From the NCBI RefSeq assembly GCF_000504285.1, contig NZ_KI632511.1, positions 3,469,372 through 3,533,371 of the forward strand: 64,000 bases of DNA, read 5' to 3'. Of the stretch, positions 4,073-51,564 are shown piece after piece (the first letter of the stretch is position 1; each line of letters begins with the position of its first letter). A program made the translations under genes and the position numbers. Under the pieces are notes generated by a model. The model searched no databases. It was not told the DNA's origin and saw only the letters and a program-made list of their open reading frames with translations. The stretch is from Actinospica robiniae DSM 44927 (GTDB lineage Bacteria > Actinomycetota > Actinomycetes > Streptomycetales > Catenulisporaceae).

Positions 4073-4076
<4 letters not shown>

Positions 4077-6649: not shown

Positions 6650-6696
6650 CGTGCGATCAACCGTCCTTGCCGGCCGTGCTTGCCAAAGAAACGGGT

Positions 6697-6731
6697 CCTT
6701 CCCGGCCGCCGTAGCCGGGCGGCCGGGAAGG
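6697..6731 (-). terminator. Intra-locus hairpin between kdpC and kdpD
   Basis: A perfect 14-bp inverted repeat (6697-6710 with 6718-6731) around a 7-nt loop lies between the pump genes and the sensor genes. No U-tract is obvious on the leftward transcript, so it may act as a weak terminator, attenuator or mRNA-stability element that lowers kdpDE relative to kdpFABC. Confidence 0.6.
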
Positions 6732-6752
6732 GGGTGATGACGTCGTGCGACT

Positions 6753-7505: not shown

Positions 7506-7511
7506 GAGTGC

Positions 7512-33594: not shown

Positions 33595-33792
33595 TCATCG
33601 GCTCGTCCGTTCGCGCAGACTGCGGGGCCTGATGTCAGCCCATACCGACTCGATGCGGGCGAGGCACGCCTCCTTGCTGCCCGACATTCCCTCCGGCCGC
33701 CACCCGGACGGGATCTCCCGGCCGTCGTCGGGCCAGATCGAGTACTGCTCCTCGTCATTGACCACGACTATGAACGTGTTCTCGCTGGTCAT
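33595..33792 (-). CDS. MbtH-like NRPS accessory protein
   Basis: A 65-residue protein of the MbtH family with its invariant residues: [24 protein letters not shown], and [20 protein letters not shown]. MbtH proteins bind and activate or solubilise adenylation domains. It follows the free carrier protein gene after 32 bases and is transcribed away from the main NRPS genes across the shared promoter. It probably serves one or more of the three A domains here. Confidence 0.95.
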
Positions 33793-34243: not shown

Positions 34244-35746
34244 GTGCACGCGATGACGATGCCCACCACGGTGCCGGCGCTGCTCGCCGCCCGGGCCGCG
34301 GCCGATCCCGACCGCGTCGCCCTGATGGGCGACGACGGCAGAGGCCTGACATATCAGGACTGGCATTCGCGCTCCTCGGCGGCGGCTCGGGCGCTGACCG
34401 CCGAGGGGCTCGGCCGGGCCGGCGTGGTCTGCCTCGTCTTCGACACCGACCGCTGGACGGACTTCGCGATCGCTTACTGCGCAGTCCAAAGCGCTGGAGG
34501 CGTCGCCGTCCCGATCTCGGCCCGCTTGCCGCCACGGGAGATCTCGGACCTGGCGCGGCGCTGCGGCGCGTGGAAGACAATCCGCGCGGACGGAATGACG
34601 GCTCTCGATCCGCCGGGCGCAGTACTCGATTTCGACGCACTCCTGGCCGAACCGCCGGGCGGGCCGATCGGCGCGCAGTTGCCGCCGGAGCCGGACGACG
34701 TCGCCCAGATCCTGTTCACCTCCGGCACCACGGGTGAGCCGAAGGGCGTGGCAGCCACGCATCAGAACCTCACCTTTGGTCAGGTTCTGGATCCACGCCG
34801 CCGGGCCTTCGCCCACTCCCGGATCCTGCTGCACGCCTTCCCGATCGGCACGAACGCCGCCCAGATGATGCTCCTGCACGCGCTCACCGCGGCCCCGGCC
34901 GTCGCCTGTATGGCACGCTTCACGCCGAGACGCTTCGCGCGCTTCGTGGAGAAGCACCGGGTCGGCACGGTGTTCCTCGTGCCGGCCATGGCCACGGAAC
35001 TGCTCGCATCGCCGGCCGCGCTGGCGCACGACCTCTCCAGCCTCCGGCTCATCGGATCCTCGGCGGCGCCGCTGCCCGCGCCGATCGCCGCGCGCCTGGC
35101 CGAGGCGTTCCCCGAGGCCGCGATCGTCAACTACTACACGTCCACCGAGGCCGCGCCCGCGCACACCGCGATGGTCTTCGACCCGGAGCGTCCCGACTCG
35201 ATCGGCATACCCGGCGCCGGATGCGCTTTGAAGATCGCCGACGCCGCGGGCCATCGGCTCGCCCCGGGCGAGATCGGCGAGGTCTGGCTGCGCGCGTCGG
35301 ACGCCGCTCGGCGCTATCTCGAGGGCGATCCGGCCGAGACCACGTTCCGCGACGGCTGGGTTCGGATGGGCGATCTGGGCCGCATCGACGACGAAGGCCA
35401 TCTCTACCTGGTCGACCGCATCTCGGACGTCGTCAAATGCGGGGCTTTCAAGGTCTCGACCCTCCGTGTGGAGGCGGCAGTGCTCGAACACGACGACGTC
35501 CTCGAGGCGACCGCGTTCGCGCTGCCGCATCCCGTGCTCGGATCGAGTGTCGCCGTCGCGGCCGTGACGCGGGCGCCGCTGTCGTTGTCGGCGCTGCGCA
35601 GCTTCCTCGGCGAACGGCTCGCCGAGCACGAGCAGCCGACCCGGCTGCTGACGATGGACGCTCTCCCGCGCAACGACGCCGGGAAGGTCCTCAAGAACGT
35701 TCTGCGGGAAAGCGCCACGACGCGAAAGGCGATGGCAGATGCCTGA
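34244..35746 (+). CDS. Stand-alone acyl/aryl-AMP ligase (class I adenylate-forming)
   Basis: A 500-residue adenylating enzyme: P-loop ILFTSGTTGEPKG, YYTSTEA at the A5 position, GDLGRIDDEGHLYLVDRISD at A7-A8 and catalytic lysine in NDAGKVLKN. Its pocket lacks the FDxSxxE signature of amino-acid A domains, so a carboxylic acid (fatty, aryl or short-chain) is more likely than an amino acid. It probably loads the free carrier protein. It is the first gene of the rightward NRPS operon; its stop overlaps the next start by 8 bases. The acid is not predictable by eye. Confidence 0.85.
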   Translation: MHAMTMPTTVPALLAARAAADPDRVALMGDDGRGLTYQDWHSRSSAAARALTAEGLGRAGVVCLVFDTDRWTDFAIAYCAVQSAGGVAVPISARLPPREISDLARRCGAWKTIRADGMTALDPPGAVLDFDALLAEPPGGPIGAQLPPEPDDVAQILFTSGTTGEPKGVAATHQNLTFGQVLDPRRRAFAHSRILLHAFPIGTNAAQMMLLHALTAAPAVACMARFTPRRFARFVEKHRVGTVFLVPAMATELLASPAALAHDLSSLRLIGSSAAPLPAPIAARLAEAFPEAAIVNYYTSTEAAPAHTAMVFDPERPDSIGIPGAGCALKIADAAGHRLAPGEIGEVWLRASDAARRYLEGDPAETTFRDGWVRMGDLGRIDDEGHLYLVDRISDVVKCGAFKVSTLRVEAAVLEHDDVLEATAFALPHPVLGSSVAVAAVTRAPLSLSALRSFLGERLAEHEQPTRLLTMDALPRNDAGKVLKNVLRESATTRKAMADA

Positions 35747-37232
35747 CGACTCCCCCATGACCCCAGCCACAGACGCGCAACGCGGCATCTGGCTGACCGA
35801 GCGCCTCGGCGGCGCCGGCAGCGCCTTTCACCTGCCGCTGTCCGTGCGCTTCGACGGGCCGCTCGACGTCGATGCACTGGCCCGGGCCTGCGACGCGGTA
35901 GTCGAACGCCACCCGGCGCTGCGGACCTGCTTCGTCGAGCACGAGGGCGCCGTGGTCCAGCTACCTTCGACCCGACGCCCGACACTCACCGCCTCCAGCG
36001 GCGACCTGGCCGCCGACATCGCAGAGCCCTTCGATCTCGAGCAAGGGCCGCCAGCTCGATTCAGGCTCCTGACGCACTTGGGGTCGGATAGCAGCACCCT
36101 GCTCTTCGTCGCGCACCACGTCGTCTTCGACGGCATGTCCAAGGACGTGCTGCTCGCGGACCTGTCGTCGTTCTACCGATCTGCCAACGCTGTGGGCGCA
36201 GTTGTCGACGCGAACGGACGTCCGTCGGCGGACGTGACCGTGGAGCGCGCGGCCGCACGGCTCTGGTCGACGCGACGCGGCGCGCTCGACGAGGTGGCCC
36301 TGCCGGGCGGATCGTTCGCGCTGCCCCTGCGCCCGGCTCCAGCCAGGTCGCTGGCGTTCGCACCCTACCTCGCGTTCGCCGACGCCATTGGAGTCTCAAG
36401 GTTCGAAGTCTTACTCGCCGCGCTGCACGCGCTCCTGCTCGGCTACGGAAACCCGGACGCCGCGATCGCGGTGGACATGTCCACCCGGGCACCCGGCGAC
36501 GACCAGGCGATCGGCTGCCACGTCAACGAGATTCCGGTCCCGGCCGACCGCGCCGAGCGGTTCCGCGATCTCGCACTCGGCTTGCGCGCAACGCTGCGCG
36601 AGCTCAGACCGGTCCGGAGTGTGCCGTACGCGCGCGCCGTCGGGGGCTTGCGACCGCGGGCGGCATTGGCCCCGGTCTCGCTCAGCTACCGGCGCCGAGG
36701 GCCGAACCCGGTGTTCGAAGGCATGCGCTGCGAGGTGGAGTGGGCGATGTCCAATGCCATGGTGCGCGGGATCATGCACGCCCACGTCGTCGACGGGCCC
36801 GACGGCTTCGATGCCCGGCTCGACTTCAACGCGCACCTGATCGATGAGGCCGCCGCTGCCGAGATCGCGGCTGACTTGGCAGAGATTTTGGCGAAGGCGG
36901 CGGCCGACCCCGACGCGCCCGTGCGCGAACTCGTCCGGCACGCCGGGAGCGGGCCGTATGCAGCCGAGTCTGCCGACGACGCATTCGGTGCGCCGTCGTG
37001 CGAAGCCGATTCCGGTCTTACCGCTCAGGTTCTGGCCATCTGGTGCGACGTGCTGCGCGTCGAGGAGATTGCGCTCGACGACGACCTCTACGACCTCGGC
37101 GGGCATTCGCTGACGATCACCCAGATCGCCGGCCGGATCCGCAAGGAGATCGGCATCGAGGTCCCGTTCGAGGTCTTCGCGGACGACCCCACGGTCATCG
37201 GCGTGGTCGAGGCGATCGGCAGGGCGCGGTGA
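35739..37232 (+). CDS. NRPS condensation-carrier didomain protein (C-PCP)
   Basis: A 497-residue protein with a condensation domain (about 5-400; active motif H126-H127-V-V-F-D131-G) and a C-terminal PCP with S457 in YDLGGHSLT. There is no A domain of its own, so its PCP must be loaded in trans or used as a relay. It could condense the acyl starter from the free carrier protein onto the first building block. It overlaps both neighbours (8 bases with the ligase, GTGA with the next NRPS), so translation is coupled. Confidence 0.88.
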   Translation: MPDDSPMTPATDAQRGIWLTERLGGAGSAFHLPLSVRFDGPLDVDALARACDAVVERHPALRTCFVEHEGAVVQLPSTRRPTLTASSGDLAADIAEPFDLEQGPPARFRLLTHLGSDSSTLLFVAHHVVFDGMSKDVLLADLSSFYRSANAVGAVVDANGRPSADVTVERAAARLWSTRRGALDEVALPGGSFALPLRPAPARSLAFAPYLAFADAIGVSRFEVLLAALHALLLGYGNPDAAIAVDMSTRAPGDDQAIGCHVNEIPVPADRAERFRDLALGLRATLRELRPVRSVPYARAVGGLRPRAALAPVSLSYRRRGPNPVFEGMRCEVEWAMSNAMVRGIMHAHVVDGPDGFDARLDFNAHLIDEAAAAEIAADLAEILAKAAADPDAPVRELVRHAGSGPYAAESADDAFGAPSCEADSGLTAQVLAIWCDVLRVEEIALDDDLYDLGGHSLTITQIAGRIRKEIGIEVPFEVFADDPTVIGVVEAIGRAR

Positions 37233-40200
37233 GCCGTCACCCGTTCTCCCACGCCCAACGCCGCCTGTGGTTCCTCCACCACTTCGATCCCGAGGACACC
37301 GCCCACAACCTGTACGTGAGCAAGCGCCTGTCCGGTGAGTTGGACACGGCGTCGCTGGCCGCGGCGTTCACCGACGTTCAACAGCGGCACGCGTCGTTGC
37401 GCACCCGGTTCATCGAGGCGGACGGTGTCCCGCTGTGCGAGGTCGAGGCGGTCGCGGCGGCCGGGCTCGAACTCGTCGACCTCTCCGGCTTGCCCGAACA
37501 GGCGCGCGAAGCCGAAGCACAGCGGCAGGTCAACGACTGCACCGCGACCGCATTCGACATCGCCAAGCAGCCACCGATCCGCGCGCTGCTGCTCCGGCTG
37601 GGCGAGCGGGAGCACGTGCTCTGCATCGCCATGCACCATCTCCTCGCCGACGTGTGGTCGCTCAATATCCTGATGTCCGAGTTGAGCCGCTGTTACCTGG
37701 CCCGGTGCGCCGGCGAGATCGCGCAACTGCCGGAACTCGCAGCGACCTACGGCGACCATTGCGTCCTCGAGGACGAGCGCGAACTCGACCCCGCCAAGCT
37801 CGACCACGCGGTCCACGCGCTTGACGGCATCCAGCCGCTGAGCCTGCCCACCGACCGTCCCCGCCCGCCGATTCGCGGAACCGCCGGGGACGAGCAACTT
37901 GTCTGGATCGAGCCGGACACCGTCGAGAGCGTTCATCAACTCGCGCGCGCTTCTAGGTGCACGCCCTTCGTCGTTCTCCTGTCGGCATACCAGGTCCTGC
38001 TCTCGCGGTGGTCCGGACAAAGCGACCTGGTCGTGGGCACGGCCACCGCCGGACGGCTGCACCCGGACTTCGAACCGGTGGTCGGGCTCTTCGCCGGCAC
38101 GCTCGCGCTCCGGGCCGATCTGGCCGATGACCCGACCTTCTCCGCCCTGCTCGCGCGCACGCGGCGCAGCGTTCTACTAGCCCTCTCCCACCAGGACGTG
38201 CCGTTCGAGCGGATCGTCGCGGCGCTGCCGACCGCCCCCGACCCGAGCAGGACCCCGGTCTTCCAGGCGTCGCTCACCCTGCATTCGCATGCGGTGGGCT
38301 ACGGCGAGCCGACCGGCTTCGCCGACCTGGCCGCCTCGCTCTTCCCGCCGGGCCGCCGGCACGCGACGACTGACCTGAGCCTGGACGTGTGGTCCGGGCC
38401 GGAGGGCATGGAGGCGGTATTCGCTTACACCACCGATCTCTTCAACGCGGACACGATCGCCCGCCTGGCCCGGTCGTTCCAGACGCTTCTCGCCGGACTC
38501 GTCGAGGACCCGTCCATACGGATCTCGCGGGCGCCGCTGCTCGATCCGGACGAGGCGCGCGAAACCGTCCTCGCCTGGAACGACACCACCAGGTCGGTCC
38601 CGGCCGCGACGGTCGTGGACATGATCGCGGCGCAGGCGAGGGTCCGGCCCGACGATCTCGCCGTCGGATGCGGCCCCGATCAGCTGACGTACGCACGGCT
38701 GGCTGCGTCGGCGGGCGCCCTGGCGGCACGGCTCGAGAAACTGGGAGCAGGGCCCGGATCGATCGTCGCGGTGTGTCTCGATCGCTCACCGGCGTTGGCC
38801 ACGGCGCTCCTCGGCGTGCTCGGTTCGGGGGCGGCCTACCTGCCGATCGACCCCGACTATCCGGCTGCCCGCACCGCTTACGTCCTCGAAGACTCACAGG
38901 CACAGCTGGTGATCACCAGCAGCGAGCTCAGACATCTGCTTCCGGAATGGACGACCCCTGTCATCCTGGACGCCGCCGAAGAACCTACTTTCGACGTGCC
39001 TCACGCCATGCGCGTGCCGGAGCCGGGGGATCCGGCGTACGTCATCTACACGTCCGGCTCGACCGGGTCGCCGAAGGGCGTGGTCGTACCGCACGACTCG
39101 CTGGCGAACTTCCTCGCGGGAATGTCAGACCTAATCGACACCGGGCCCGGCGACGTCTGGCTTGCGCTGACCTCGCTCTCCTTCGACATATCAGGCCTCG
39201 AGCTCTACCTGCCCCTCGTCGCGGGCGCGCGAGTCGAGATCGCGGACCGCGCGACGGCCCGGGACGGCCTGGCGCTCGCCAGGCTGGTCGAGTCCGCGGG
39301 CGTCACGCACCTCCAGGCCACACCCTCGGGCTGGCGGATGCTGCTGGCCGGCGACGTCGACGCGCGCGCGATCACCGCTCTGGTCGGCGGTGAGGCGCTG
39401 CCCCCACGCCTGGCCGCCGAGCTGCGCGCACAGACCCGCCGCCTGGTGAACATGTACGGCCCGACCGAGACGACGATCTGGTCGACCGCGTGGGAGGTTC
39501 CACTCGATCCGCGGGAGACGCTGATCGGCTCTCCGATCGCGAACACGTCCGTCTACGTCCTCGACCCGCAGGGACGCCTCCTCCCGATCGGCGTCGTCGG
39601 GGAGCTGGTGATCGGCGGTGCGGGCCTGGCACTCGGCTACTTGGGCCGCCCCGGCCTGACCGCCGACCGCTTCGTCCCCGACCCGTACGGGCCGGCGGGC
39701 GCTCGCGCGTACCGGACGGGCGACCAGGTGCGGTGGCGTCCCGACGGACGGCTGGAGTACGTGGGCCGCACGGACGACCAGATCAAACTTCGCGGCCATC
39801 GCATCGAGCTCGGCGAGGTGGAGGCGGTCCTCGGCGCCTTCCCCGGCGCGACGCAGACGGCCGTCGCGGTGCACAACGAAGTACTCGTCGCCTACGTGGT
39901 CGGATCCGTGGACGGACTACGCGAGCACGCAGCGGCATCACTGCCCTCTTATATGGTGCCCACGCGCTACGTACAGCTGCCCGCGCTTCCGTTGACTCCC
40001 AACGGCAAAGTAAATCGCAAGGCACTGCCAGCCCCGACGCCGCGCAGATCCGTCGCGGGCGCCGGCACCCCAAGCGCGCCGGGGGCGCCTAGGCCACCCA
40101 TGACCGCTGAGCAGGCGATCGTGGCCGCGTCGTTCCGCGACGTCCTCGGCTGCGGCGAGGTGGAAATCGATGACGACTTCTTCGCTCTCGGCGGACACTC

Positions 40201-43200
40201 GCTGGCGGCTGTGCAGGCCGTAGCCCGGATCTGCTCGGCGGTGGGCGGCGCGATACCGGTCAAGGAGTTGTTCCTCGCCCCGACCATCGAGGCCTTCGCG
40301 CGCGTCGTCTCGGAACGCCGGGCGAGCGCGCCCGGCCTGGCACCGGTGCGGCCTCGACCGGCCGGGGCTTTCGTGCCCGTCTCGGCGGCACAACAACGGC
40401 TGTGGTTCCTCCAGCGCCTTGATCCGCAGGACGCGTCCTACACCATGTACCTGGTCAAGCGGCTCTCCGGTCCGCTGGATCCAGCCGCTTTCGAAGACGC
40501 GTGGTCCGACGTCGTCCACCGCCACGAAAGCCTGCGCAGCAGCTTTCCCGAGAAAGACGCAGAGCCCGTACTCGAGGTCGCCGAACCCGGGCACAGCCGG
40601 ATCGACTTCCTCGATCTGTCGGGACTGGGCGGCACGGCCGAATGCGAAGCCCTGTCTGCGGTGGCCGCTGAGACCAACCGGGCCTTCGACCTGACTGCGG
40701 AACCGCCGGTGCGATGCCGGCTGCTGAGGCTGGCCGAGGACGATCACGTCGTGTGCGTCACGATGCACCACGCGATCGCGGACGGCGCCTCTCTCAATAT
40801 CCTGCTTTCCGAACTGGCCGGCTGCTATACCGCCCGGCGCTGTGGCACGCTCCCGCCGCCGGCGCCCGCGATCAGCCATCCGGACGTCCTGTGGTGGCGC
40901 GCGCAGCAGGCGGACGACGGCGAACGCGCGTACTGGTCGGAAAAACTCGCCGATCCGCCGATCCTCGAACTGCCGACGGATCGGCCGCGCCCGGCGGCGA
41001 GCGCTCATCGGGGCGCGTTCCACGGGCTCGACATCTCGCCGGAGCCGCTGGCCCGGCTGCTGGAGGTGGCCCGCAGCCGAGGCGCCACCCTCTACATGCT
41101 CCTGTTGGCCGCGTACCAGGTGCTGCTGGCAAGGCACACCGGGCAGGACGACCTCATCGTGGCGTCCCCGATCGCGGGACGGGAGCGCGTCGAGTTCGAG
41201 TCGGTCATCGGCTACTTCGCCAACACCCTGGTTCTACGCGGCGATCTGTCCGGCGACCCGCGCTTCACCGAACTGCTTGAGCGCACGCGTCTGACGGTGC
41301 TCGAAGCGTTCGAGCACCAGGACATTCCCTTCGAGCACCTCGTGGCGGATTCGCGGCGCGCACCACTGTTTCGCAGCATGATGATCCTGCACACGCAGGA
41401 CACGCCCCAGCGCGACGATCTCTTCGCCGATCTGCACATGTCCCCCTTCGACGGCGGGTACCGGCAGGCGAAGCTCGACCTCACACTCGAAGCCTGGCAG
41501 AGCGGAACAGGACTCTCACTTCTCTTCGGCTATGACACAGAGCTCTTCGACGAAGCAACGATCGCGGCTCTGGCCGGGCACTTCCGACTCCTGCTGGACT
41601 CGATCATCGAGGATCCGAGCCAGCGGATCCACACCTTGCCGATGAGTCCCGAGCCTGAGATCGCGCAGTTGCTCACCTGGGCTGACGGTCCTGCGGACGA
41701 GGACACGGAGCTCGTCCCGGACATGCTGGCCGCAGTGCCGGGATCGTCGGTCGCGCTGGTCTGCGGTGCGGCGACCATGACCCGATCAGTGCTCGACGAT
41801 CGGGTCGCGCAGCTCGCCACTCTGTTGCGGCGTCACGGAGTCGGGGCGAAGGGCGTCGTCGGCCTGTGCTTGGAACGGTCCGTCGACAGCGTGGCCGCCA
41901 TCCTGGCCGTGTGGGCCGTCGGCTGCGCGTATCTGCCCCTTGACAGTGGCTACCCGGCCGAACGCCTCGCCAGCCTTCTCGAGGACAGCGGCGCCGAGAT
42001 CGTGTTGACTGACAACGGATCGCGCGGCGCTCTGCCGCCCGGCGCGTTCACCGTCCTGTGCTGTGACGACGCCGACGAACACGATGCGACCGGGCCTCAT
42101 ATCACCGGCCCCGACGACGACGCGTACCTCATCTACACATCCGGCTCGACCGGCCAGCCCAAGGGCGTAGTCGTCAGCCACGCCAACTTGGCTGCGCGCG
42201 TCCGCTGGATGCGCCGCGGTTACGAACTTGGCCCCGGCGACGTCGTCGTGCAGTTCGCGTCGTCCAGCTTCGACACCCACGCCGAGGAGATCTTCCCAGC
42301 GCTGGCGTCCGGCGCCACGGTCGCACTGCTGCCGGGCGGGCCGCACAGCCTGGCCGAGTTCCTCGCCACCGATGAGGGACGACGCGTCAGCGTGCTCGAC
42401 CTGCCGACCGCCTACTGGCACGCGTTGGTCGACGATCTCGACCAGATCAGGTGGCCGGTCGCGCTACGCCTGGTGATCCTCGGCGGCGAGCAGGTCCACG
42501 GAGCGGCTGTCGCCCGCTGGCGTGCCCGCTTCGGCGACCGGATCCGGCTGGTCAACACCTACGGCCCGACCGAGACCACGATCATCGCGACCGCGGACGA
42601 CATCCGGGATGAAGACAACCCGCCGATCGGGCACCCGATCAGCGCCACCGCCGTGTACGTGCTCGACCAGGCCGGCTCGCTCGCGCCCCTCGGCGCACCC
42701 GGCGAGCTCGTCGTCGCAGGGGCCGGAGTCGCCCGCGGCTATCTCGGCGACCCGGACGCCACCGCCGCGCGCTTCATCGCAGACCCCTTCGGCCCTCCCG
42801 GCTCGCGTGCGTACCGCACCGGCGATCGCGTCCGGTGGCGTCGCGATGGGCGTCTCGAGTTCCTTGGCCGGATCGATGACCAGGTCAAGGTCTGGGGATT
42901 CCGGGTCGAACCCGGCGAGGTCGAAGCCTGTTTGCTGACTCATCCCGAGGTGAGCGGAGCTGTGGTGGTGGCCACGGGCGAGACGCTCACGGCCTACGTC
43001 GTCTCCCGGACCGCCCCGGACGCGCTGCGTCAGCACGCGGCTCGGATCCTGCCCCCGCATCTCGTGCCGGACCGGTGGATCGGGATCGAAGAAATCCCGT
43101 TGACCGTGAACGGCAAGGTCGATCGCAAAGCCCTGCCACAGCCCGGAAGCCAGCCGGCCACGGGGTTCACCGAGCCGAGGACTCCGGCCGAGGAGCTGGT

Positions 43201-43465
43201 CGCCGAGGTGTGGGCGGAGCTGCTGGAGCGCCGGGTGGGCGCGCACGACGATTTCTTCACCCTGGGCGGACACTCGCTGCTGGCGACCAGAGCCACCGCG
43301 CGCATACGCGCCACCACCGAGATCGACATCCCGCTGCGCACGCTCTTCGAGCGGCGAACCGTGGCGGAATACGCCGAAGCGCTCGACGAACTGCTCGACG
43401 CCGAGATCGCAGCACTCGATGACGAGGACGTCATGCGGCTGCTCGACCCCAGGGAAGCCTCATGA
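37229..43465 (+). CDS. Two-module NRPS, C-A(Gly)-PCP-C-A-PCP
   Basis: A 2078-residue megasynthase. Module 1: C with H136-H137xxxD141-VW; A1 with YTSGSTGSPKG, D653 in SFDISGLEL and NMYGPTETTIW; PCP S991. Module 2: C with H1180-HAIADG; A2 with D1682 in SFDTHAEEI and NTYGPTETTII; PCP S2016. Manual pocket alignment gives DILQLGMIW(K) for A1, a recognised glycine code, and DTELIGTII(K) for A2, which I cannot assign. No epimerase or methyltransferase is present. The GTG start overlaps the previous stop (GTGA) and the stop overlaps the third NRPS start (ATGA). Confidence 0.93.
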   Translation: MSRHPFSHAQRRLWFLHHFDPEDTAHNLYVSKRLSGELDTASLAAAFTDVQQRHASLRTRFIEADGVPLCEVEAVAAAGLELVDLSGLPEQAREAEAQRQVNDCTATAFDIAKQPPIRALLLRLGEREHVLCIAMHHLLADVWSLNILMSELSRCYLARCAGEIAQLPELAATYGDHCVLEDERELDPAKLDHAVHALDGIQPLSLPTDRPRPPIRGTAGDEQLVWIEPDTVESVHQLARASRCTPFVVLLSAYQVLLSRWSGQSDLVVGTATAGRLHPDFEPVVGLFAGTLALRADLADDPTFSALLARTRRSVLLALSHQDVPFERIVAALPTAPDPSRTPVFQASLTLHSHAVGYGEPTGFADLAASLFPPGRRHATTDLSLDVWSGPEGMEAVFAYTTDLFNADTIARLARSFQTLLAGLVEDPSIRISRAPLLDPDEARETVLAWNDTTRSVPAATVVDMIAAQARVRPDDLAVGCGPDQLTYARLAASAGALAARLEKLGAGPGSIVAVCLDRSPALATALLGVLGSGAAYLPIDPDYPAARTAYVLEDSQAQLVITSSELRHLLPEWTTPVILDAAEEPTFDVPHAMRVPEPGDPAYVIYTSGSTGSPKGVVVPHDSLANFLAGMSDLIDTGPGDVWLALTSLSFDISGLELYLPLVAGARVEIADRATARDGLALARLVESAGVTHLQATPSGWRMLLAGDVDARAITALVGGEALPPRLAAELRAQTRRLVNMYGPTETTIWSTAWEVPLDPRETLIGSPIANTSVYVLDPQGRLLPIGVVGELVIGGAGLALGYLGRPGLTADRFVPDPYGPAGARAYRTGDQVRWRPDGRLEYVGRTDDQIKLRGHRIELGEVEAVLGAFPGATQTAVAVHNEVLVAYVVGSVDGLREHAAASLPSYMVPTRYVQLPALPLTPNGKVNRKALPAPTPRRSVAGAGTPSAPGAPRPPMTAEQAIVAASFRDVLGCGEVEIDDDFFALGGHSLAAVQAVARICSAVGGAIPVKELFLAPTIEAFARVVSERRASAPGLAPVRPRPAGAFVPVSAAQQRLWFLQRLDPQDASYTMYLVKRLSGPLDPAAFEDAWSDVVHRHESLRSSFPEKDAEPVLEVAEPGHSRIDFLDLSGLGGTAECEALSAVAAETNRAFDLTAEPPVRCRLLRLAEDDHVVCVTMHHAIADGASLNILLSELAGCYTARRCGTLPPPAPAISHPDVLWWRAQQADDGERAYWSEKLADPPILELPTDRPRPAASAHRGAFHGLDISPEPLARLLEVARSRGATLYMLLLAAYQVLLARHTGQDDLIVASPIAGRERVEFESVIGYFANTLVLRGDLSGDPRFTELLERTRLTVLEAFEHQDIPFEHLVADSRRAPLFRSMMILHTQDTPQRDDLFADLHMSPFDGGYRQAKLDLTLEAWQSGTGLSLLFGYDTELFDEATIAALAGHFRLLLDSIIEDPSQRIHTLPMSPEPEIAQLLTWADGPADEDTELVPDMLAAVPGSSVALVCGAATMTRSVLDDRVAQLATLLRRHGVGAKGVVGLCLERSVDSVAAILAVWAVGCAYLPLDSGYPAERLASLLEDSGAEIVLTDNGSRGALPPGAFTVLCCDDADEHDATGPHITGPDDDAYLIYTSGSTGQPKGVVVSHANLAARVRWMRRGYELGPGDVVVQFASSSFDTHAEEIFPALASGATVALLPGGPHSLAEFLATDEGRRVSVLDLPTAYWHALVDDLDQIRWPVALRLVILGGEQVHGAAVARWRARFGDRIRLVNTYGPTETTIIATADDIRDEDNPPIGHPISATAVYVLDQAGSLAPLGAPGELVVAGAGVARGYLGDPDATAARFIADPFGPPGSRAYRTGDRVRWRRDGRLEFLGRIDDQVKVWGFRVEPGEVEACLLTHPEVSGAVVVATGETLTAYVVSRTAPDALRQHAARILPPHLVPDRWIGIEEIPLTVNGKVDRKALPQPGSQPATGFTEPRTPAEELVAEVWAELLERRVGAHDDFFTLGGHSLLATRATARIRATTEIDIPLRTLFERRTVAEYAEALDELLDAEIAALDDEDVMRLLDPREAS

Positions 43466-46400
43466 CCGAGATATCGCCCGGCACGCCCGCGACACAGGCG
43501 CGCAAGGCGCTCGCTGCTCAACGCCTCGCCCGTCGCGCGGCGAAGCGCACGATCGGCACGCGTTCGCCTGACGGTCCGGTGCCGGTGTCGTTCGCCCAGG
43601 AGCGGCTGTGGTTCCTCGACCGCCACACGGCGGCAGGCACGGCGTACACGATTCCGTTCGTGCGCCGAATCCGTGGCGCCGTCGATGCGGAAGCGCTGGC
43701 GGCAGCTCTGACCGCGGCCGCGGCCCGGCACGTGCCGCTACGCACCCGGTTCACCGAGGACGACGAGGGCCGTCCGCTCGCCACGATCGACGAGGACGCC
43801 CGGTTCCCGCTGGAAACCGCGACGGCCGCCGGGCCGGACGACGCGCGTCAACAGGTGGACGAGTTCCTGGGCCGCGGATTCGACCTCGCCGCCGGTCCGG
43901 TCGCCCACGCGCTGCTCATCCGGCTCGACGAGGACGACCACGTCCTGGCTCTCGCCGTCCACCACATCGCCGCCGACGGCTGGTCCATGAGCATCCTGTG
44001 GCGCGACATCGTGGCCAGCCATGCCGGACGCACGCCACCCGATCCGCCCGTCCGCTATGACGACTTCGCCGCGTGGCAGCGAGGGCTAGAGCCCGGCTCC
44101 GACCTGCCGTACTGGCGGTCGCAGCTCGCCGGGGTCAGCCCGCTCGAGCTGCCTACGGACCGGCCGCGGCCGCCCGAGCAGACGCACCGCGGTGCCGCCT
44201 TCGACTTCACCGTCGATCCCGTCACGACGGTCGGGCTCTCGGGCGTGAGCCGGGACCACGGCGCAACGCTCTACATGACGCTGCTCGCCGCGTTCGCCCT
44301 CGTCCTCGGCCGGGCCTCGGGCCGCGACGACGTCACCGTCGGCTCGCCGGTGGCCGGGCGAGCCCTGCCGGAACTCGACGGCCTCATCGGATGCTTCGTC
44401 AATGTGTTGGCAATGCGTGCGGACCTCGGCGGCGACCCCACATTCGCCGAACTGCTGCTGCGGGTACGTGACACCGCCCTCGACGCCTACACCCATCAAG
44501 ATCTGCCCTTCGAACGCTTAGTCGCCGAGCTCAAAGTGCCGCGCGACCTTTCCCGCTCGCCGATATTCCAGGCCTTGTTCTCCATGGCCAACTACGCCGA
44601 TCCGTCGGCGGACGACGCGGCCGGGGACACGCTGCGGGTCGAGGGGTTCGCGCCCGGATCCTGGGCCACCCGCTACGACCTCGAGTTGTACGCCGCCGCA
44701 GACGACGCCGACGGGCTCATCGCCTCGTTCGTCTACAACACCGATCTGTTCGACGCGCAGACCATCGAGCGCATCGCCCGCCGTTTCGCTGACGTCTTAC
44801 GCGCCGTAGCCGCCGACCCGACCTCCGCGCTGTCCTCGCTTGGGCTTCCCGGCGAGGAGGAGCGTCGGCTGACGGTGGAGGGCTGGAACCAGACGGCAAC
44901 GCCGTTCCCCGACACCACCACCGCCACCGTGCACGGACTCTTCGAAGCCCAAGCCACGCGCACTCCCGAAGCCGCGGCGGTCACCTTCGCCGGCCAGAGC
45001 CTGACCTACGCCGAACTCGACGCCCGCGCGGAAGCGGTCGCCGGAATGCTGCGCGGTCGGGGCATCAGACACGGCGACGTCGTCGCCGTGTGCGCACACC
45101 GGTCTTTCGAACTCGTCGTCGCGCTCCTCGGCGTACTCAAATCAGGAGCCGCATACCTTCCGCTGGATCCGGACTACCCCGCGCAGCGACTCGCGTCGAT
45201 GGCCGAGGACTGCGCCGCGCGCGTACTGCTGGCCCAGCGCTCTCTCGAGTCGATACCCGATGTAGCGGGGGCCCAGATCGTCACCCTCGAAGACCTCCCG
45301 CACCGCGTCGAATCCGCCGAGACCGCCGACCCCGTCACCCCGCCCTCGGCCCAGGACATCGCGTACGTCATCTTCACCTCCGGCTCCACCGGCAAGCCCA
45401 AGGGCGTGGCCAACACCCATCGCGGCGTCGTCAACCGGCTGCGCTGGATGCAGGCCGAGTTCGGGCTGGACCACAGCGACGCCGTGCTGCAGAAGACGCC
45501 GGCCGGGTTCGACGTATCGGTCTGGGAGTTCTTCTGGCCGCTGATCGTCGGCGCACGCCTCGTCCTGGCCGAGCCGGGCGGCCACAAGGACGCCGAGTAC
45601 ATGCGTACCCTGATCAACTCGGAACGCATCACGACCGCACACTTCGTGCCGACCATGCTCGGGATGTTCCTGGCCGACGAGCAGGCACCCCCGTGCCCGA
45701 CGCTCAGCCGGATCATCTGCTCCGGCGAGGAGCTCCCCGTGGATCTGGCGACGCGGTGTCTCCGGCTACAGCCGGGCAGTTCCCTCGCCAACCTCTACGG
45801 CCCCACGGAGGCCGCGATCGACGTCTCCGCTTGGCACTGCCGCGCGCAGGACCTGGCGGGTGCGGCGCGGGTACCCATCGGCGCGCCGATCGCCAACACC
45901 CGGCTCTACGTGCTCGACGACGCGATGCGCTCCGCGGGCATCGCAGTGCCCGGAGAGCTGTACATCGGCGGTGCGCAGGTGGCGCTCGGCTACCTCGGCC
46001 GCCCGAGGTTGACCGCCGAGCGGTTCGTGCCGGACCCGTTCGGGCCGCCGGGTGCCCGCCTGTACCGAACCGGGGACCGCGCGCGCTGGCGGCCGGACGG
46101 GACGATCGAGTTCCTGGGCCGGCTCGATCACCAGATCAAGCTGCGCGGCATGCGGATCGAGCTCGGCGAGATCGAGACGGCACTCCGCGCGCAACCCGGC
46201 ATCACCGATGCGGTCGTGGTCGTGCGCGAGGATCAGCCCGGTGATCAGCGCCTGGTCGGCTACGTCGTGGGCGCGGAGCCGGATCGCGCGGCACTGCGCC
46301 GGACCCTGCCCGACTACATGGTGCCGACGGCATGTGTCGTACTCGACGCCCTTCCACTGTCGACGAACGGGAAACTCGACCGCGCAACGCTGCCCGCACC

Positions 46401-48885
46401 AGCGCTCACGCTCGCCCGCGACGCCGCGGCACCGGTGATCGCTCCGTCCACCGCGACGGAAGTGCTGGTGGCCGAGATATGGCGGGAAGTGCTCGGCATC
46501 GCAGAGCTCGGCGTCGACGACGACTTCTTCGATCTCGGCGGCCACTCGCTCACCGCGACCCGCGTCATCGCCAAGCTCCGCAAGTCTGGCGGCGCCGGCG
46601 TGAGCGTGATGGATCTGTTCAAGCACCCGACCGTGCGAGGCATCGCAGGGCTCATTGACACGCCCGCCGCCGACCGCGCGCCACGAGGACTTCTGCACCA
46701 GCTCACACCACCGCGTTCGACCACGCCGGAACTGACGCTGGTATGCGTGCCCTACGGCGGCGGCAGCGCGGTGGTCTACCAGCCGCTGGCCGACGCGCTT
46801 CCCACAACGCATGCGCTGTGGGCGCTCGCCATCCCGGGGCACGACGTCGGCCTCGACGAGCAGCGACTGCCGTTCGACGAGCTCGCGGGCCGCTGCGTCG
46901 CCGAGATCCGGGAGAAGGTGTCCGGGCCGATCGCGGTATACGGGCACTGCGGTGTGGGTTCGGCGCTGGCCGTCGAAGTGGCCAGGCGGCTCGAGGCCGA
47001 GGGCCGCACCCTCGAGGCGGTCTACATCGGGGCGATCTTCCCGTTCGCCAAGCCCCGGCGCGGACCGTTGGCCGCTCTGGCCGGCGCCGCCCGGATGGAA
47101 CGCCTGCGCAGCGATCGCGGGTACATCAACTGGCTGACCTCTATGGGTGTCAGCATGGGCGACCTCGACCCCGAGCAGGCCATCCGGATCGTGCGCACCA
47201 TGCGCCAGGACTCCGAAGCCGCCGAGCAGTACTTCACCGACCTGTTCGACTCCGGCGACGCCCGGCTCAAGGCCCGGATCGTCACCGTGGCCGGAGAGCA
47301 GGACCCTTCGACCGAGTACTACCAGGAGCGGTACCGCGAGTGGCATCAGCTCACTGATTGCTCGTCGGTCGTGGTGCTGCGCGAGGCAGGGCACTTCTTC
47401 CTCAAGTACCGCGCAACGGAACTCGCGCGGATCGTGACGACCGTGCACCGCGACGAGATGGAAGCGGAGCTCCCCCGCGACGACGAACAGGACCGGCCGA
47501 CCTGGTGGTGGCACGCGACGTCGCGCAGCCCGGTCCCCGTCTCGCCGCCCGGTCCGCAGCCGAGCATGCGCAGGTTCCTGGCCGTGGCCGCTGGCCAGCT
47601 GGTCTCGATGACGGGATCGGCGCTGACCGAGTTCGCGGTGCCGCTCTGGATCTACCTGACCAGCCACTCCCTCGCGCACTTCGCTCTGTTCTCGGTCGTC
47701 GCCCTGGTCCCGGGCATGGTGGTCGCACCGCTGGCCGGAGCCGTGGTGGACCGATTCGACCGGCGCCGCGTCATGCTCGCCGGCGACGCCGCGGCAGCCG
47801 CGACCCAGCTGCTGTTCGGACTGCTGCTATGGACCGGGCATCTGCAGGTGTGGCAGATCTATCCGCTCCTCGCCGTGCTCTCACTCGCACTCACCTTCCA
47901 GCGCCTGGCCTACGGCTCGGCCGTCGCGCAGCTGGTGCCCAAGCGCTATCTGGGGCACGCCAACGGAATCGTCCAACTGACTCAGGGCACTGCGAGTTTG
48001 CTCGTCCCCCTCGTCGCCGTCGGCGTCATGGCGGCGATCGGCCTGTCCGGAATCCTGGCTCTGGACATCGCCAGCTACGCCATCGCAATCGTCAGTGTCC
48101 TGCTGGTCCGGTTCCCAAAGACGATGGCGTGGCGCAGGCACGAGTCGCTGGCGGCCGAGATCGCCGGCGGGTTCCGGTACTCCTGGGGCAACCGGGACTT
48201 CCGCCGCATGCTCGGATTCTTCGCCGTGCTCAACGTCTTCCTCTCCCCCCTGTTCCTGCTGATCTCGCCGCTGGTCCTCTCCTTCGCACGCCTCGGCGAC
48301 GTGGCCCGGGTCTCCTTCGCCGGCGGCCTCGGAGTATTCCTCGGCGGCCTCGCGATGACGGCCTGGGGCGGCCCGAGCCACCAGCGGATGCGCGCGGTCC
48401 TGATCGCGACGCTGGCCCTTGCAGGCTTCTGTCTACTCACCGGACTCCGCCCGAACCTCTTCGTCATCGCCGTCGGCGCGTTCGGCATGTCGATGTGCCT
48501 GACGCTGCTCAACGGCGTGTACTTCGCGCTCATCCAAGTCAAGGTGCCACAGCGGTTCCACGGCCGTGTCTTCGCCCTCAATACCCTGATCGCTTGGTCC
48601 ACTCTCCCACTGGGCTTCGGCGTAGTCGCGCCGCTGGGCTCGCGCCTCGCCGCACCGCTGCTCGCGCCCGGCGGAGCGCTGGCCTCCACCGTGGGAGCGG
48701 TGATCGGGACCGGCCCGGGCCGCGGCATCGGGCTGCTGTACGTCACGTTCGCAATCATCATCGCGGCCTGGACCGCCACCGCCCTACGCAGTCCGCTCGC
48801 CACCTTCGACGACCGCGTCCCGGACGCCGAGCCCGACGACTTGATCGGTCTCGCCCTACTACGAACTGATGATCAGCCGAGTTGA
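43462..48885 (+). CDS. NRPS terminal module fused to MFS exporter, C-A(Ser)-PCP-TE-MFS
   Basis: An 1807-residue fusion. C domain with H167-HIAADG; A domain with D684 in GFDVSVWEF and pocket DVWHISLID(K), a serine code; PCP S1029; a thioesterase (about 1090-1335) whose nucleophile elbow is GHCGVG, with Cys1163 in place of Ser, acid in AGEQDPSTEYY and His in REAGHFFLKY; then a 12-helix-like major facilitator domain (about 1370-1780; VDRFDRRRVMLAGD between helices 2 and 3). The exporter fused to the release domain suggests that product release and export are coupled at the membrane. The last codons (TDDQPS and the stop) lie inside repeat element 2. Confidence 0.93.
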   Translation: MTEISPGTPATQARKALAAQRLARRAAKRTIGTRSPDGPVPVSFAQERLWFLDRHTAAGTAYTIPFVRRIRGAVDAEALAAALTAAAARHVPLRTRFTEDDEGRPLATIDEDARFPLETATAAGPDDARQQVDEFLGRGFDLAAGPVAHALLIRLDEDDHVLALAVHHIAADGWSMSILWRDIVASHAGRTPPDPPVRYDDFAAWQRGLEPGSDLPYWRSQLAGVSPLELPTDRPRPPEQTHRGAAFDFTVDPVTTVGLSGVSRDHGATLYMTLLAAFALVLGRASGRDDVTVGSPVAGRALPELDGLIGCFVNVLAMRADLGGDPTFAELLLRVRDTALDAYTHQDLPFERLVAELKVPRDLSRSPIFQALFSMANYADPSADDAAGDTLRVEGFAPGSWATRYDLELYAAADDADGLIASFVYNTDLFDAQTIERIARRFADVLRAVAADPTSALSSLGLPGEEERRLTVEGWNQTATPFPDTTTATVHGLFEAQATRTPEAAAVTFAGQSLTYAELDARAEAVAGMLRGRGIRHGDVVAVCAHRSFELVVALLGVLKSGAAYLPLDPDYPAQRLASMAEDCAARVLLAQRSLESIPDVAGAQIVTLEDLPHRVESAETADPVTPPSAQDIAYVIFTSGSTGKPKGVANTHRGVVNRLRWMQAEFGLDHSDAVLQKTPAGFDVSVWEFFWPLIVGARLVLAEPGGHKDAEYMRTLINSERITTAHFVPTMLGMFLADEQAPPCPTLSRIICSGEELPVDLATRCLRLQPGSSLANLYGPTEAAIDVSAWHCRAQDLAGAARVPIGAPIANTRLYVLDDAMRSAGIAVPGELYIGGAQVALGYLGRPRLTAERFVPDPFGPPGARLYRTGDRARWRPDGTIEFLGRLDHQIKLRGMRIELGEIETALRAQPGITDAVVVVREDQPGDQRLVGYVVGAEPDRAALRRTLPDYMVPTACVVLDALPLSTNGKLDRATLPAPALTLARDAAAPVIAPSTATEVLVAEIWREVLGIAELGVDDDFFDLGGHSLTATRVIAKLRKSGGAGVSVMDLFKHPTVRGIAGLIDTPAADRAPRGLLHQLTPPRSTTPELTLVCVPYGGGSAVVYQPLADALPTTHALWALAIPGHDVGLDEQRLPFDELAGRCVAEIREKVSGPIAVYGHCGVGSALAVEVARRLEAEGRTLEAVYIGAIFPFAKPRRGPLAALAGAARMERLRSDRGYINWLTSMGVSMGDLDPEQAIRIVRTMRQDSEAAEQYFTDLFDSGDARLKARIVTVAGEQDPSTEYYQERYREWHQLTDCSSVVVLREAGHFFLKYRATELARIVTTVHRDEMEAELPRDDEQDRPTWWWHATSRSPVPVSPPGPQPSMRRFLAVAAGQLVSMTGSALTEFAVPLWIYLTSHSLAHFALFSVVALVPGMVVAPLAGAVVDRFDRRRVMLAGDAAAAATQLLFGLLLWTGHLQVWQIYPLLAVLSLALTFQRLAYGSAVAQLVPKRYLGHANGIVQLTQGTASLLVPLVAVGVMAAIGLSGILALDIASYAIAIVSVLLVRFPKTMAWRRHESLAAEIAGGFRYSWGNRDFRRMLGFFAVLNVFLSPLFLLISPLVLSFARLGDVARVSFAGGLGVFLGGLAMTAWGGPSHQRMRAVLIATLALAGFCLLTGLRPNLFVIAVGAFGMSMCLTLLNGVYFALIQVKVPQRFHGRVFALNTLIAWSTLPLGFGVVAPLGSRLAAPLLAPGGALASTVGAVIGTGPGRGIGLLYVTFAIIIAAWTATALRSPLATFDDRVPDAEPDDLIGLALLRTDDQPS

Positions 48886-49043
48886 TAGGGCGGCGTAGTG
48901 GCCTTCGGTTGGGCGGGGCGGGCTGCGGTTTCAAGATCTCGCCTCCGGCGCGGGCCCTTCCCTCAGAGAGAGTGCCGGGGCTGCGTTGGTGCCGGCGTGG
49001 CGGGGCGGGCTGGGGTTCGGGGTGGTCAGGTGCCGGGGGCGTG

Positions 49044-49192
49044 CTCTCTCCTCGGCCGGTCCCCGGAGGCAATCAGGAACCTGCCGGGAGGTCAAGCGGC
49101 GGTGGCTTCCGCTCATGCTCGATCTTGCATCGCGCCGCTTGACCTCCCGGCAGAACCCTGATCGGGCTTCGCCTGCCCGACCGAGGAGAGAG
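49044..49192 (+). repeat. 149-nt hairpin module C
   Basis: Same length and orientation as module A: outer strand with TCCCCGGAGGCAATCAGG, inner strand with CCTGATCGGGCTTCGCC, and stem ends CTCTCTCCTCGG/CCGAGGAGAGAG. One T-to-C change in the left stem (CTCGGCCGG) is not compensated. The loop differs from A (CTTCCGCTCATGCTCGATC), so loops drift while stems are kept. Confidence 0.85.
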
Positions 49193-49825
49193 CCCACCCC
49201 CTGAGGGTCCAGTGCGAGCTGCGCTCGGGCCGGATCCCGTTCCGGGCCCAGCCGCGCTCGACGCGGAAGGATCCTGCAACGCCGTTCCAGACCGCCGTCT
49301 TCTTCTCTACTACTTCAACGCCGGGGAACGCGCCCGAGTGCCCGGAAATCTCCATAAATTTTACCTATCCAGCAAAGGCCGGATAAACGGTTTTTGTCGG
49401 TGGTGGCATCTAGCATGGAAGAGTACGAGGGTCGGGGCTTGTGACGTGAGGGTGGTGGACGGGGTGGCTGGGCAGGTGGGGCCGAAAGCGGTGCAGGATT
49501 TCCCCTTGGCGTTCGACCGAGTCCCGCGATCCTGCGCATTGGGTGAGCATCGGATGGATCGCACCGGGGGCGATGCAGAATTCATCCCGATCAGGCGCGG
49601 GCCAGCCTGCGGGATTCTGCCGCGAGATCTGGGATCGGGGTCGATCGCAACAGGGCGATGCCGGATTTCACATCACGCGCGACCGAGCCGCCAACCTCTT
49701 CGCGCGGATCGAGGACCGGGCTGCTCGGATCAGGGCGATGCAGAATCCTTCCGCACCGAGCGCGGCCGGGCCCCGGGACGGGACTAGGCCTGAGTGCAGC
49801 TCGCACCAGACCCTCAGGGGGTGGG

Positions 49826-49974
49826 CTCTCTCCTCGGTCGGGCAGGCGAAGCCCGATCAGGGTTCTGCCGGGAGGTCAAGCGGCGCGATGCACAATCGAC
49901 CACCAGCACAAACCACCGCCGCTTGACCTCCCGGCAGGTTCCTGATTGCCTCCGGGGACCGACCGAGGAGAGAG
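49826..49974 (-). repeat. 149-nt hairpin module D
   Basis: Inverted like module B, same 149-nt length and the same asymmetric internal segments. Loop sequence diverges (GTTTGTGCTGGTGGTCG on the minus strand) while both stem blocks are intact. Confidence 0.85.
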
Positions 49975-50202
49975 CACACCCCCGCAACCCCACCATCCCG
50001 AACCCCAGCCCGCCCGACCACCCCAGCACCCCACAGACTCCGGCATCTCTCTCCGAGGGAAGGGCCCGCCAGCGGCAGCTTTTGATCTTGAAACCCCAGC
50101 CCACCCTGCCAACGCAACGGGTGGGCGGGTGGTCAGATAAAACGGGCGACGCGAAGCGGTCACCCCCACCACAACGCTCACCCAGCCGATCATCAATCCG
50201 CT

Positions 50203-51564
50203 CTAGTGAAGGCCGAGGCTGAGCGCGGCGGAAACGATGGTGGCCTCCAGGCGGTAGAGCATGCGGGACATGGTGGCGGCGGGTACGACGCGAGTGTCGG
50301 CGATCATAGAGAGGCGAAGGTCGCCGACGGTGTCGAGGACGTCGAGCGCCAGAGTCAGATTCAACCGGCGGTCGTACGCCGCGGGCCAGGTCAATCGGGT
50401 ACGGCTCGCATCGGCCGCGAGTGAGCGGGCGGTCGGGGCCGTGGATGGGCTCACGGGGCGCGGCCGACGGCGGTCGTTGTACCAGACGGTGCGGTCGATC
50501 TGCGTCCCGCGCGCGGCTTCGGCCTCTGCGACGGCGCGGTCCATTTCGCGCTTGTCGTAGTGACCGTTCCGGTAGGCGCGCAGCGAAGCTTGTGCCACTG
50601 CGGGCAGGAGCCGGGAGAAGTCGGGATCGCCGCAGTCGATACCGAGCAGGGTCTCGCGGGCCATCGCGCATACGGCGTCCTGGGTGCCGGGGAGCGTGCG
50701 GTTGCCGGCCGTGGCCATGATCAGCAGCTGCGACGTCCCCGATTCGGCGGCGAGCGCCTCGGCGAATCCGGCCAACAACACCACTGCCGAGCCCACCCCG
50801 GTTTCCGCGCCCAGGTGAGTTGCCGCGCGTCCGAGTGCGCGTGAGCGCAGCACCGCCTCACGAAATGCTGGACCGTCCACAGGCCGTGGCTCGTCGCGAA
50901 AGACGCGCTCCGGGGCATCGGCCAGCACAGAACTGGCGTGGGCGCATGCCTGTCGGCTTCGGCGAAGGGCCTGCTCGGACTGCTCGTACGCGGCGACTTC
51001 GCGCGGCTGGAGGGTGCCGGGCCGCTCGACCCGTTCGTGCCCCGCGAGCAGGTTGGCGAACGCCTCACTCACCAGGCCCGCGGCCCATCCGTCGACCGCG
51101 GTGTGCGCGAGCGTGAACACGACGCGGGCCACGTCCTCGCCGACCATGACCCATCCGATCCGGATCGGCCATTGCGTGGCGCAATCGAAGGCGTGGCCGC
51201 GCATCTCCGCTTGTAAGGCCTCTACGTGATTCGCCACGTCGTCCGTCGTGCATCGCGAGATCGAGGTGTGAATACAGCCAGTCGCGTCCAGGACTTGATC
51301 GAGCCCTGCACCGCTCGGAATCAGGCGCGTGCGCAGGCTTTCGCAGGCCACGACGAGGCTCGCTCCTGCACGTTCGGCCGCCGCACGGCTGGTTCCGGGC
51401 GGGACGGCCTGCGACCAGGCGATGTTGAACAGGTGGTGGTCCGGTGCCAGCTCCTGGAACGCCTGCCACATCGCGTACTGCGCCCAGGTCGCCGCCACTG
51501 CCGTCCCGCCGCCCCGGCCGCCGCCGGCATCCACCAGGATCCCGGCGACCTCGACCTCGTGCAT
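50203..51564 (-). CDS. Stand-alone condensation-domain-like acyltransferase
   Basis: A 453-residue protein with the fold signature of NRPS condensation domains: FTLAHTAVDGWAAG holds H154 and D158 of HHxxxDG, but the first His is replaced by Ala. The latch/floor region (SGTSQLLIMATAGNRTL, then a Cys/Gly-rich stretch) also resembles the family. No carrier or A domain is attached. ATG has GGAG upstream. It is the last gene of the sugar-uptake operon (13 bases after gntR) and its stop lies 6 bases from repeat element 2. It may acylate a small molecule or act on the NRPS product. Confidence 0.65.
   Translation of the reverse strand: MHEVEVAGILVDAGGGRGGGTAVAATWAQYAMWQAFQELAPDHHLFNIAWSQAVPPGTSRAAAERAGASLVVACESLRTRLIPSGAGLDQVLDATGCIHTSISRCTTDDVANHVEALQAEMRGHAFDCATQWPIRIGWVMVGEDVARVVFTLAHTAVDGWAAGLVSEAFANLLAGHERVERPGTLQPREVAAYEQSEQALRRSRQACAHASSVLADAPERVFRDEPRPVDGPAFREAVLRSRALGRAATHLGAETGVGSAVVLLAGFAEALAAESGTSQLLIMATAGNRTLPGTQDAVCAMARETLLGIDCGDPDFSRLLPAVAQASLRAYRNGHYDKREMDRAVAEAEAARGTQIDRTVWYNDRRRPRPVSPSTAPTARSLAADASRTRLTWPAAYDRRLNLTLALDVLDTVGDLRLSMIADTRVVPAATMSRMLYRLEATIVSAALSLGLH

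Follow-up and report, generated by a model that had tools for sequence, protein, structure and literature searches.

In the papers cited here, closure of a four-membered ring by a Cys-type thioesterase (TE) of a nonribosomal peptide synthetase (NRPS) is discussed for two enzymes, ObiF and SulM (PMC6668435, PMC11298585). Both pair a Cys nucleophile with a catalytic-triad Asp that sits at position II (Asp-II), a combination linked with ring closure (PMC11298585). The C1146S variant of ObiF1 yields the hydroxy acid only, and the loss of Arg1190 has a cost of about tenfold (PMC6668435). The triad Asp of type II TEs likewise lies at position II (PMC11298585), and RifR is known as an acyl-PCP (peptidyl carrier protein) hydrolase (PMC6668435). 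EntF, in contrast to ObiF1, performs the iterative trimerisation and macrolactonisation of 2,3-dihydroxybenzoyl-Ser (DHB-Ser) (PMC6668435). A TE followed by a transporter domain of the major facilitator superfamily (MFS) on one predicted protein has been annotated in Verticillium polyketide synthases (PKSs) with the order ketosynthase, acyltransferase, two acyl carrier proteins, TE and MFS (KS-AT-ACP-ACP-TE-MFS) (PMC9495618). Here I analysed a stretch of 64,000 nucleotides of the Actinospica robiniae DSM 44927 genome (contig NZ_KI632511.1; hereafter the window), in which a terminal NRPS module has a TE with a predicted Cys nucleophile and is fused to an MFS transporter domain. The reading preferred here, tentatively, is that an ObiF/SulM-like Cys-TE may release an acyl-Gly-X-Ser chain as a beta-lactone, which would be exported by the fused MFS domain.

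Thioesterase of the Terminal NRPS Protein

The open reading frame (ORF) at positions 43462-48885 of the window (plus strand) contains the stretch IAVYGHCGVGSALAVE. The TE region of the terminal protein reads YGHCGVGSALAVE, with Cys1163 inside. The domains and residues in question are as follows (C, condensation domain; A, adenylation domain).

43462..48885, plus strand: protein of 1807 aa in which the terminal NRPS module C-A-PCP-TE is joined to an MFS transporter (domain order from Pfam profiles)
44941..46374, plus strand: terminal A domain, code DVWHISLIDK, Ser predicted (alignment, EntF control)
46735..47436, plus strand: thioesterase domain (PF00975, residues 1092-1325, whole-protein E 3.4e-15)
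46948..46950, plus strand: Cys1163, predicted nucleophile (TGC in frame; alignment)
47032..47034, plus strand: Ala1191 at triad position I, Asp in EntF and Gly1173 in ObiF1 (alignment)
47107..47109, plus strand: Arg1216, aligned with ObiF1 Arg1190 (the lid alignment is gappy)
47302..47304, plus strand: Asp1281, triad Asp at position II (GEQDP motif; alignment)
47392..47394, plus strand: His1311, triad His (EAGHFF motif; alignment)
47575..48648, plus strand: MFS transporter domain, Mef/EntS-like (PF07690 2e-17, residues 1376-1712; TIGR00900)

A preliminary description of this DNA had claimed that the TE of the terminal NRPS has Cys1163 in the motif GHCGVG with the His and the Asp in place. This was confirmed in frame, where the Cys codon is preceded by those of Gly (46942-46944) and His (46945-46947). 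The range given for the motif, 46941-46956, includes the Cys1163 codon but starts one base too early. The fused MFS exporter, the upstream acyl ligase and C-PCP protein, and the extra residue of the nucleophile elbow were absent from that description. The elbow, G-H-C-G-V-G, is one residue longer than the G-H-C-A-G of ObiF1. Judging from the alignments, it is close to certain that Cys1163 is the catalytic nucleophile of the TE.

The MFS domain matches the TIGR00900, Mef(B), Mef(A), and EntS models, in each case with a score short of the curated cut-off. By these scores, its closest known counterparts would be the Mef-type macrolide efflux and EntS transporters, whereas the MFS domain of the window is fused to an NRPS. 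An AlphaFold2 model of the TE-MFS part (39 rows; predicted local distance difference test, pLDDT, 85.9) has a hydrolase-like domain and then a bundle of long helices. The Verticillium TE-MFS proteins (PMC9495618) are fungal PKS gene models, while the window protein is an NRPS. No earlier account of a TE-MFS fusion on an NRPS was found in a literature search limited to PubMed Central (PMC) papers under Creative Commons licences.

Comparison with Known Thioesterases

Among solved chains, ObiF1 is the best sequence match (1.3e-28), followed by the type II TE BorB (5e-20). The TE was also modelled with AlphaFold2 (11 rows, mean pLDDT 75.7), and the model was compared with solved structures by VIA-align. 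ObiF1 came first with a Z of 25.2 (3.1 A over 243) and SulM second with 24.9 (3.0 A over 238), followed by BorB (21.0), RifR (20.6), and NocB (19.9), so that type II TEs reach 21.0. ObiF1 is also first by Foldseek E-value. Thus, the comparison with obafluorin biosynthesis made earlier holds in that the nearest solved TE, by sequence and by fold, is ObiF1, and Asp-II and a small residue at position I are shared.

The window TE has further traits in common with the ObiF1 TE (PDB 6n8e), namely the Cys nucleophile (Cys1146, corresponding to Cys1163) and the equivalent of Arg1190. However, the two are 31% identical, and the GHCAG of ObiF1 fits the pattern GxCxG while the GHCGVG of the window does not. 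ObiF1 is described as having an MbtH-like domain after its TE, where the window protein has the MFS transporter. The substrate of ObiF1 is DHB plus one amino acid, whereas that of the window line is probably an acyl group plus three. The SulM TE (PDB 8w2c, sulfazecin) is alike in its Cys nucleophile, Asp-II, and fold, but shows only about 20% identity, and its Gln-Cys-Asn (QCN) motif (PMC11298585) is replaced by His-Cys-Gly in the window TE. The reported SulM substrate is 2,3-diaminopropionate, whereas the terminal A code of the window line is Ser-type and near that of EntF (the control run was EntF, not a diaminopropionate A domain). A sulfotransferase, which is a SulM-type trait, was not seen among the annotated genes of the window, the annotation covering part of the ORFs.

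EntF also ends in a Ser module of the order C-A-PCP-TE, but its TE has a Ser nucleophile and Asp at position I, where the window TE has Cys and Ala. The type II TEs RifR and BorB have a related fold and Asp-II, yet they are stand-alone proteins (with GHSMG in RifR), while the window TE is embedded between the PCP and the MFS domain. Since GxCxG, the QCN motif, and the terminal residue of SulM are not found in this module, the window TE is placed in neither the ObiF nor the SulM type, although it is predicted to work like the TEs of both.

Conservation of the TE-MFS Fusion

The TE-MFS fusion on NRPSs is present in many other actinobacteria. Among the genomes of 60 relatives, 13 match a TE-MFS query at E<=1e-30, some of them in one domain only. 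Cys was found in all 11 aligned TE rows, which are the window and ten TE-MFS proteins from these relatives. Of the 432 candidates obtained by scanning a single genome per species, the best 80 all have the TE joined to an MFS domain. An evenly drawn sample of the class yielded matches at E<=1e-60 in 23 of 394 genomes, and in one or more of these the match was to the MFS part only; the count is a lower bound because two candidates per genome were scored. Another TE-MFS NRPS, whose terminal code is Asp-like, lies in the window's own genome near C1:325544-327793.

After the removal of identical rows, there were 134 distinct MFS-fused TEs including that of the window, 127 with Cys and 7 with Ser as the nucleophile. 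Adding 16 non-fused TEs and ObiF1 brings the set to 151 rows, of which 137 have Cys and 14 have Ser. Every one of the 151 keeps the Asp and the His of the triad. Because Cys is kept in 137 of the 151 related rows and the Asp and His in all, Cys1163 is not a chance residue. Position I is Ala in 94 rows, Gly in 53, Ser in 4, and Asp in none. Of the 134 fused rows, 118 have the longer elbow, which does not occur in any of the 17 non-fused rows. At the site aligned with ObiF1 Arg1190, 93 of the 151 have Arg.

The tree of these 151 rows is the result of a quick search and has several long branches. It omits identical TEs, matches spanning fewer than 150 query residues, hmmsearch matches below 40 bits, non-fused TEs without a readable A code (including the Cys row L227), the second TE of L095, and RifR. 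Four short outgroup fragments were also omitted, and their places came back as L205, L206, L207, and L209. L242 was scored as non-fused; its contig stops shortly after the TE, and an MFS domain may be cut off.

Terminal Adenylation Codes and the Cys/Ser Change

The A-code positions were placed by eye with the help of motifs. The Ser code is the one checked against a control: the same positions read DVWHFSLVDK in E. coli EntF. The code DVWHISLIDK of the window fits Ser, in agreement with the last amino acid predicted in the preliminary description. The other class names used here (Gly, Cys, Asp, Asn, and Orn) are presumed assignments.

All 73 rows with the Ser terminal code (67 fused, 6 non-fused) and all 15 rows with a Cys-like terminal code have the Cys nucleophile. 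The seven fused rows with a Ser nucleophile (L068, L070, L076, L077, L083, L091, and L154) read GHSSVG, and all have a DTEDT terminal code. The seven non-fused ones (L207, L208, L231, and L234-L237) are C-A-PCP-TE-sized proteins with frames of 1039-1244 aa; they read GHS[SA]G and have the terminal code DIWQSTADDK. The tree requires two Cys/Ser changes in all, one of them within the fused set. In both changes, the terminal code on the Ser side lies outside the Ser, Cys, Asp-like, and Asn-like classes. Orthologues with Ser at this site and the same product, which would have contradicted the earlier proposal, were looked for and not encountered among these rows: the 7 of 134 fused TEs that have Ser all carry another terminal code. 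The Ser-nucleophile TE-MFS orthologues are a natural Cys-to-Ser experiment. A natural Ser-type branch belongs to Planobispora/Planomonospora, and a Cys-terminal module is found in Nonomuraea.

The equivalent of Arg1190 is Ala in six and Ser in one of these seven fused rows, while it is Arg in 53 of the 67 fused Ser-coded rows and in 15 of the 15 Cys-coded rows. A TauD-type hydroxylase query matches 25 loci longer than 9 kb: 19 in the range L078-L115, the loci L162-L165, and the two Ser-type loci L207 and L208.

It was also considered whether Cys is restricted to end residues with a beta-hydroxyl or beta-thiol group. Such a restriction does not hold strictly, because Asp-, Asn-, and Orn-like codes go with Cys as well; Cys alone is therefore no predictor of a beta-lactone.

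Assembly Line and Gene Neighbourhoods

The other genes assigned to the assembly line are as follows.

33595..33792, minus strand: MbtH-like protein (PF03621 1.6e-18)
34244..35746, plus strand: stand-alone AMP (adenosine monophosphate) ligase, probable activator of the starter acid (PF00501 1.2e-63)
35739..37232, plus strand: C-PCP didomain protein, probable starter carrier (PF00668 and PF00550)
37229..43465, plus strand: NRPS C-A-PCP-C-A-PCP, A codes DILQLGMIWK and DTELVLTIIK
50203..51564, minus strand: free-standing protein with a condensation domain, probably part of this cluster (PF00668 3.6e-14)

The start of the C-A-PCP-C-A-PCP protein is probably the GTG at 37229, which overlaps with the preceding stop codon; the listed ORF opens at 36998. 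The code of its first A domain, DILQLGMIWK, is taken to be that of Gly. For DTELVLTIIK (residue X), a string search of the literature gave no matches, and the nearest solved A domains name no amino acid. The AMP ligase has 99 matches in NCBIfam, the best 25 of which are mostly acyl-CoA or fatty-acid ligase models, with none reaching the cut-off. The ligase and the C-PCP protein would probably supply a starter acid to the NRPS.

According to the locus layouts, ligase-type genes occur in 30 loci including the window, and a free C-domain family occurs in 25 loci. The top matches in other loci are 52-55% identical for the ligase, 39-45% for the C-PCP didomain protein, and about 30% for the free-standing C-domain protein, which is thus a distant match to the recurrent family. 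On the TE strand, the codes of many lines run Gly, X, and finally Ser or Cys, and Micromonospora-type lines have an Asn-like code ahead of Ser. In several Asp-like loci, the terminal A code is the sole amino-acid code on the TE strand of the stretch scanned, the scan being confined to that strand; the product of such loci may consist of an acyl group and one amino acid. Cys-terminal and Asp-like TE-MFS loci (L038-L043, L080, L081, L092, L097, and L143-L149) repeatedly have genes for 2-oxoacid dehydrogenase E1, E2, or both as neighbours; each of the two families was named after a single representative.

Proposed Release Mechanism and Alternatives

In the proposed mechanism, the ligase would activate a carboxylic acid and load it on the C-PCP protein, and the assembly line would add Gly, X, and Ser in turn. 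The last PCP would hand the acyl-Gly-X-Ser chain to Cys1163 as a thioester. The beta-hydroxyl group of Ser would then attack this thioester (4-exo-trig), freeing a small beta-lactone, and the MFS domain of the same polypeptide would export it. The hydroxy acid as the only product of ObiF1 C1146S, together with Cys in 127 of the 134 fused TEs, suggests that activation at the thioester level is needed. Also in favour are the kinship with ObiF1 and SulM, the triad with Asp-II and Ala at position I, the Cys nucleophile of every Ser-coded and Cys-coded row, and the other terminal codes on the Ser side of both Cys/Ser changes, in the fused one together with loss of the Arg1190 equivalent. The domain order, triad, relatives, fusion, and Ser-type code can be read from the sequence, while catalysis by Cys1163, the module order across proteins, the role of the ligase, ring closure, and transfer to the exporter are inferred. 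The preliminary description had already named such an attack of Ser on its own thioester as possible in principle; it is supported as to the conserved Cys, the triad, the kinship with ObiF1, and the Ser code, while the formation of a beta-lactone stays at the level of a proposal.

Several observations weigh against beta-lactone release. The elbow has one residue more than the GxCxG pattern. SulM is eighth by sequence (6.1e-7), and by Foldseek E-value it ranks behind 7dxo, BorB, and 7crn, though its TM-score is above theirs. The TE of AB3403 from Acinetobacter, with an uncharacterised product, has a Cys nucleophile and Asp at position I, and is thus a solved Cys-TE without the Asp-II triad (PMC11298585). 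The Cys nucleophile also occurs with Asp-like (32 rows), Asn-like (8), and Orn-like (2) codes and with DIWELTADDK (1); the remaining Cys rows of the 137 are ObiF1 itself and five with other or unread codes. L095, a further distant Cys-TE, has the terminal code DIWQRTADDK. The link between Cys/Ser and the terminal residue comes down to two independent pairs, and a sign test is not significant. The Arg1190 site is no clean marker, being Arg in 4 of the 7 non-fused Ser-nucleophile rows and in 1 of the 6 non-fused Ser-coded Cys rows. Not one of the 24 DFT-coded loci longer than 9 kb matched the TauD-type hydroxylase, the search being a single tblastn query for this hydroxylase type in loci of that length, so that no beta-hydroxyl is evident there. 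Unlike these DFT-coded loci, the Ser-type TEs L207 and L208 adjoin a TauD gene. Finally, no self-resistance gene was recognised among the annotated genes; no systematic search for one was made.

The persistence of Cys across diverse terminal codes, Asp-like and Orn-like included, would fit a Cys-TE that is a plain hydrolase, in which Cys is ancestral in the TE branch and merely persisted, and whose linear acyl-Gly-X-Ser acid is exported by the MFS domain. The Asp-II triad of the type II TEs and the hydrolase activity of RifR point the same way. However, ObiF1 and SulM, the top two by VIA-align, close rings, and the tree calls for just two Cys/Ser changes, in each of which the Ser side carries a different terminal code. 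Plain hydrolysis, the main rival, is regarded as somewhat unlikely.

A nucleophile other than the Ser hydroxyl might attack the Cys1163 thioester, either from a second chain, giving an oligomer or macrolactone as in EntF, or from an acceptor brought by the free C domain. The trimerisation by EntF is a precedent for the former, and the recurrence of the free C-domain family, to which the window protein is a distant match, would agree with the latter. EntF, however, is unlike the window TE in using Ser as the nucleophile and in having its Asp at position I, and a catechol-acid ligase model is absent from the best 25 of the 99 NCBIfam matches of the ligase. Such a route seems improbable.

It is hardly credible that Cys1163 is non-catalytic or the gene decaying, for which the elbow one residue longer than GxCxG is the sole hint, given the open frame of 1807 aa, the Asp and His in all 151 rows, a Cys or Ser nucleophile in every row, and the hydrolase fold of the models.

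Extending beta-lactone release from the window to its relatives gives a wider picture, which is speculative and, taken as a whole, unlikely. A large actinobacterial NRPS family with a longer-elbow Cys-TE might release acyl-peptidyl Ser beta-lactones, or beta-thiolactones where the end residue is Cys, and pass them straight to the fused exporter. One branch would have switched to a Ser nucleophile, probably a hydrolytic one, along with its terminal amino acid. With more than 100 distinct homologues, varied terminal residues, and a natural Cys-to-Ser change, the need for Cys in strained-ring release is testable by comparison. If true, the TE-exporter fusion would couple the release of a reactive product with its export.

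Other Features of the Window

A high-copy palindromic dispersed element of about 1.04 kb lies at 48988-50030, between the NRPS gene and the free C-domain gene. It has 262-nt inverted repeats (89%) and nested repeats. It was found at at least 40 distinct places in the window's genome, its own copy counted, and the others are 81-90% identical (40 of 278 candidates were scored). A search of 13 relatives turned up short pieces in two congeners (73-87% identity, <200 nt) and a 64-nt match in one further genome. Elsewhere in the window, both on the minus strand, a KdpD sensor kinase gene and a P-type ATPase gene (probably KdpB) lie at 4073-9596, and one ORF at 25723-29178 encodes a protein kinase domain and then WD40-type repeats.

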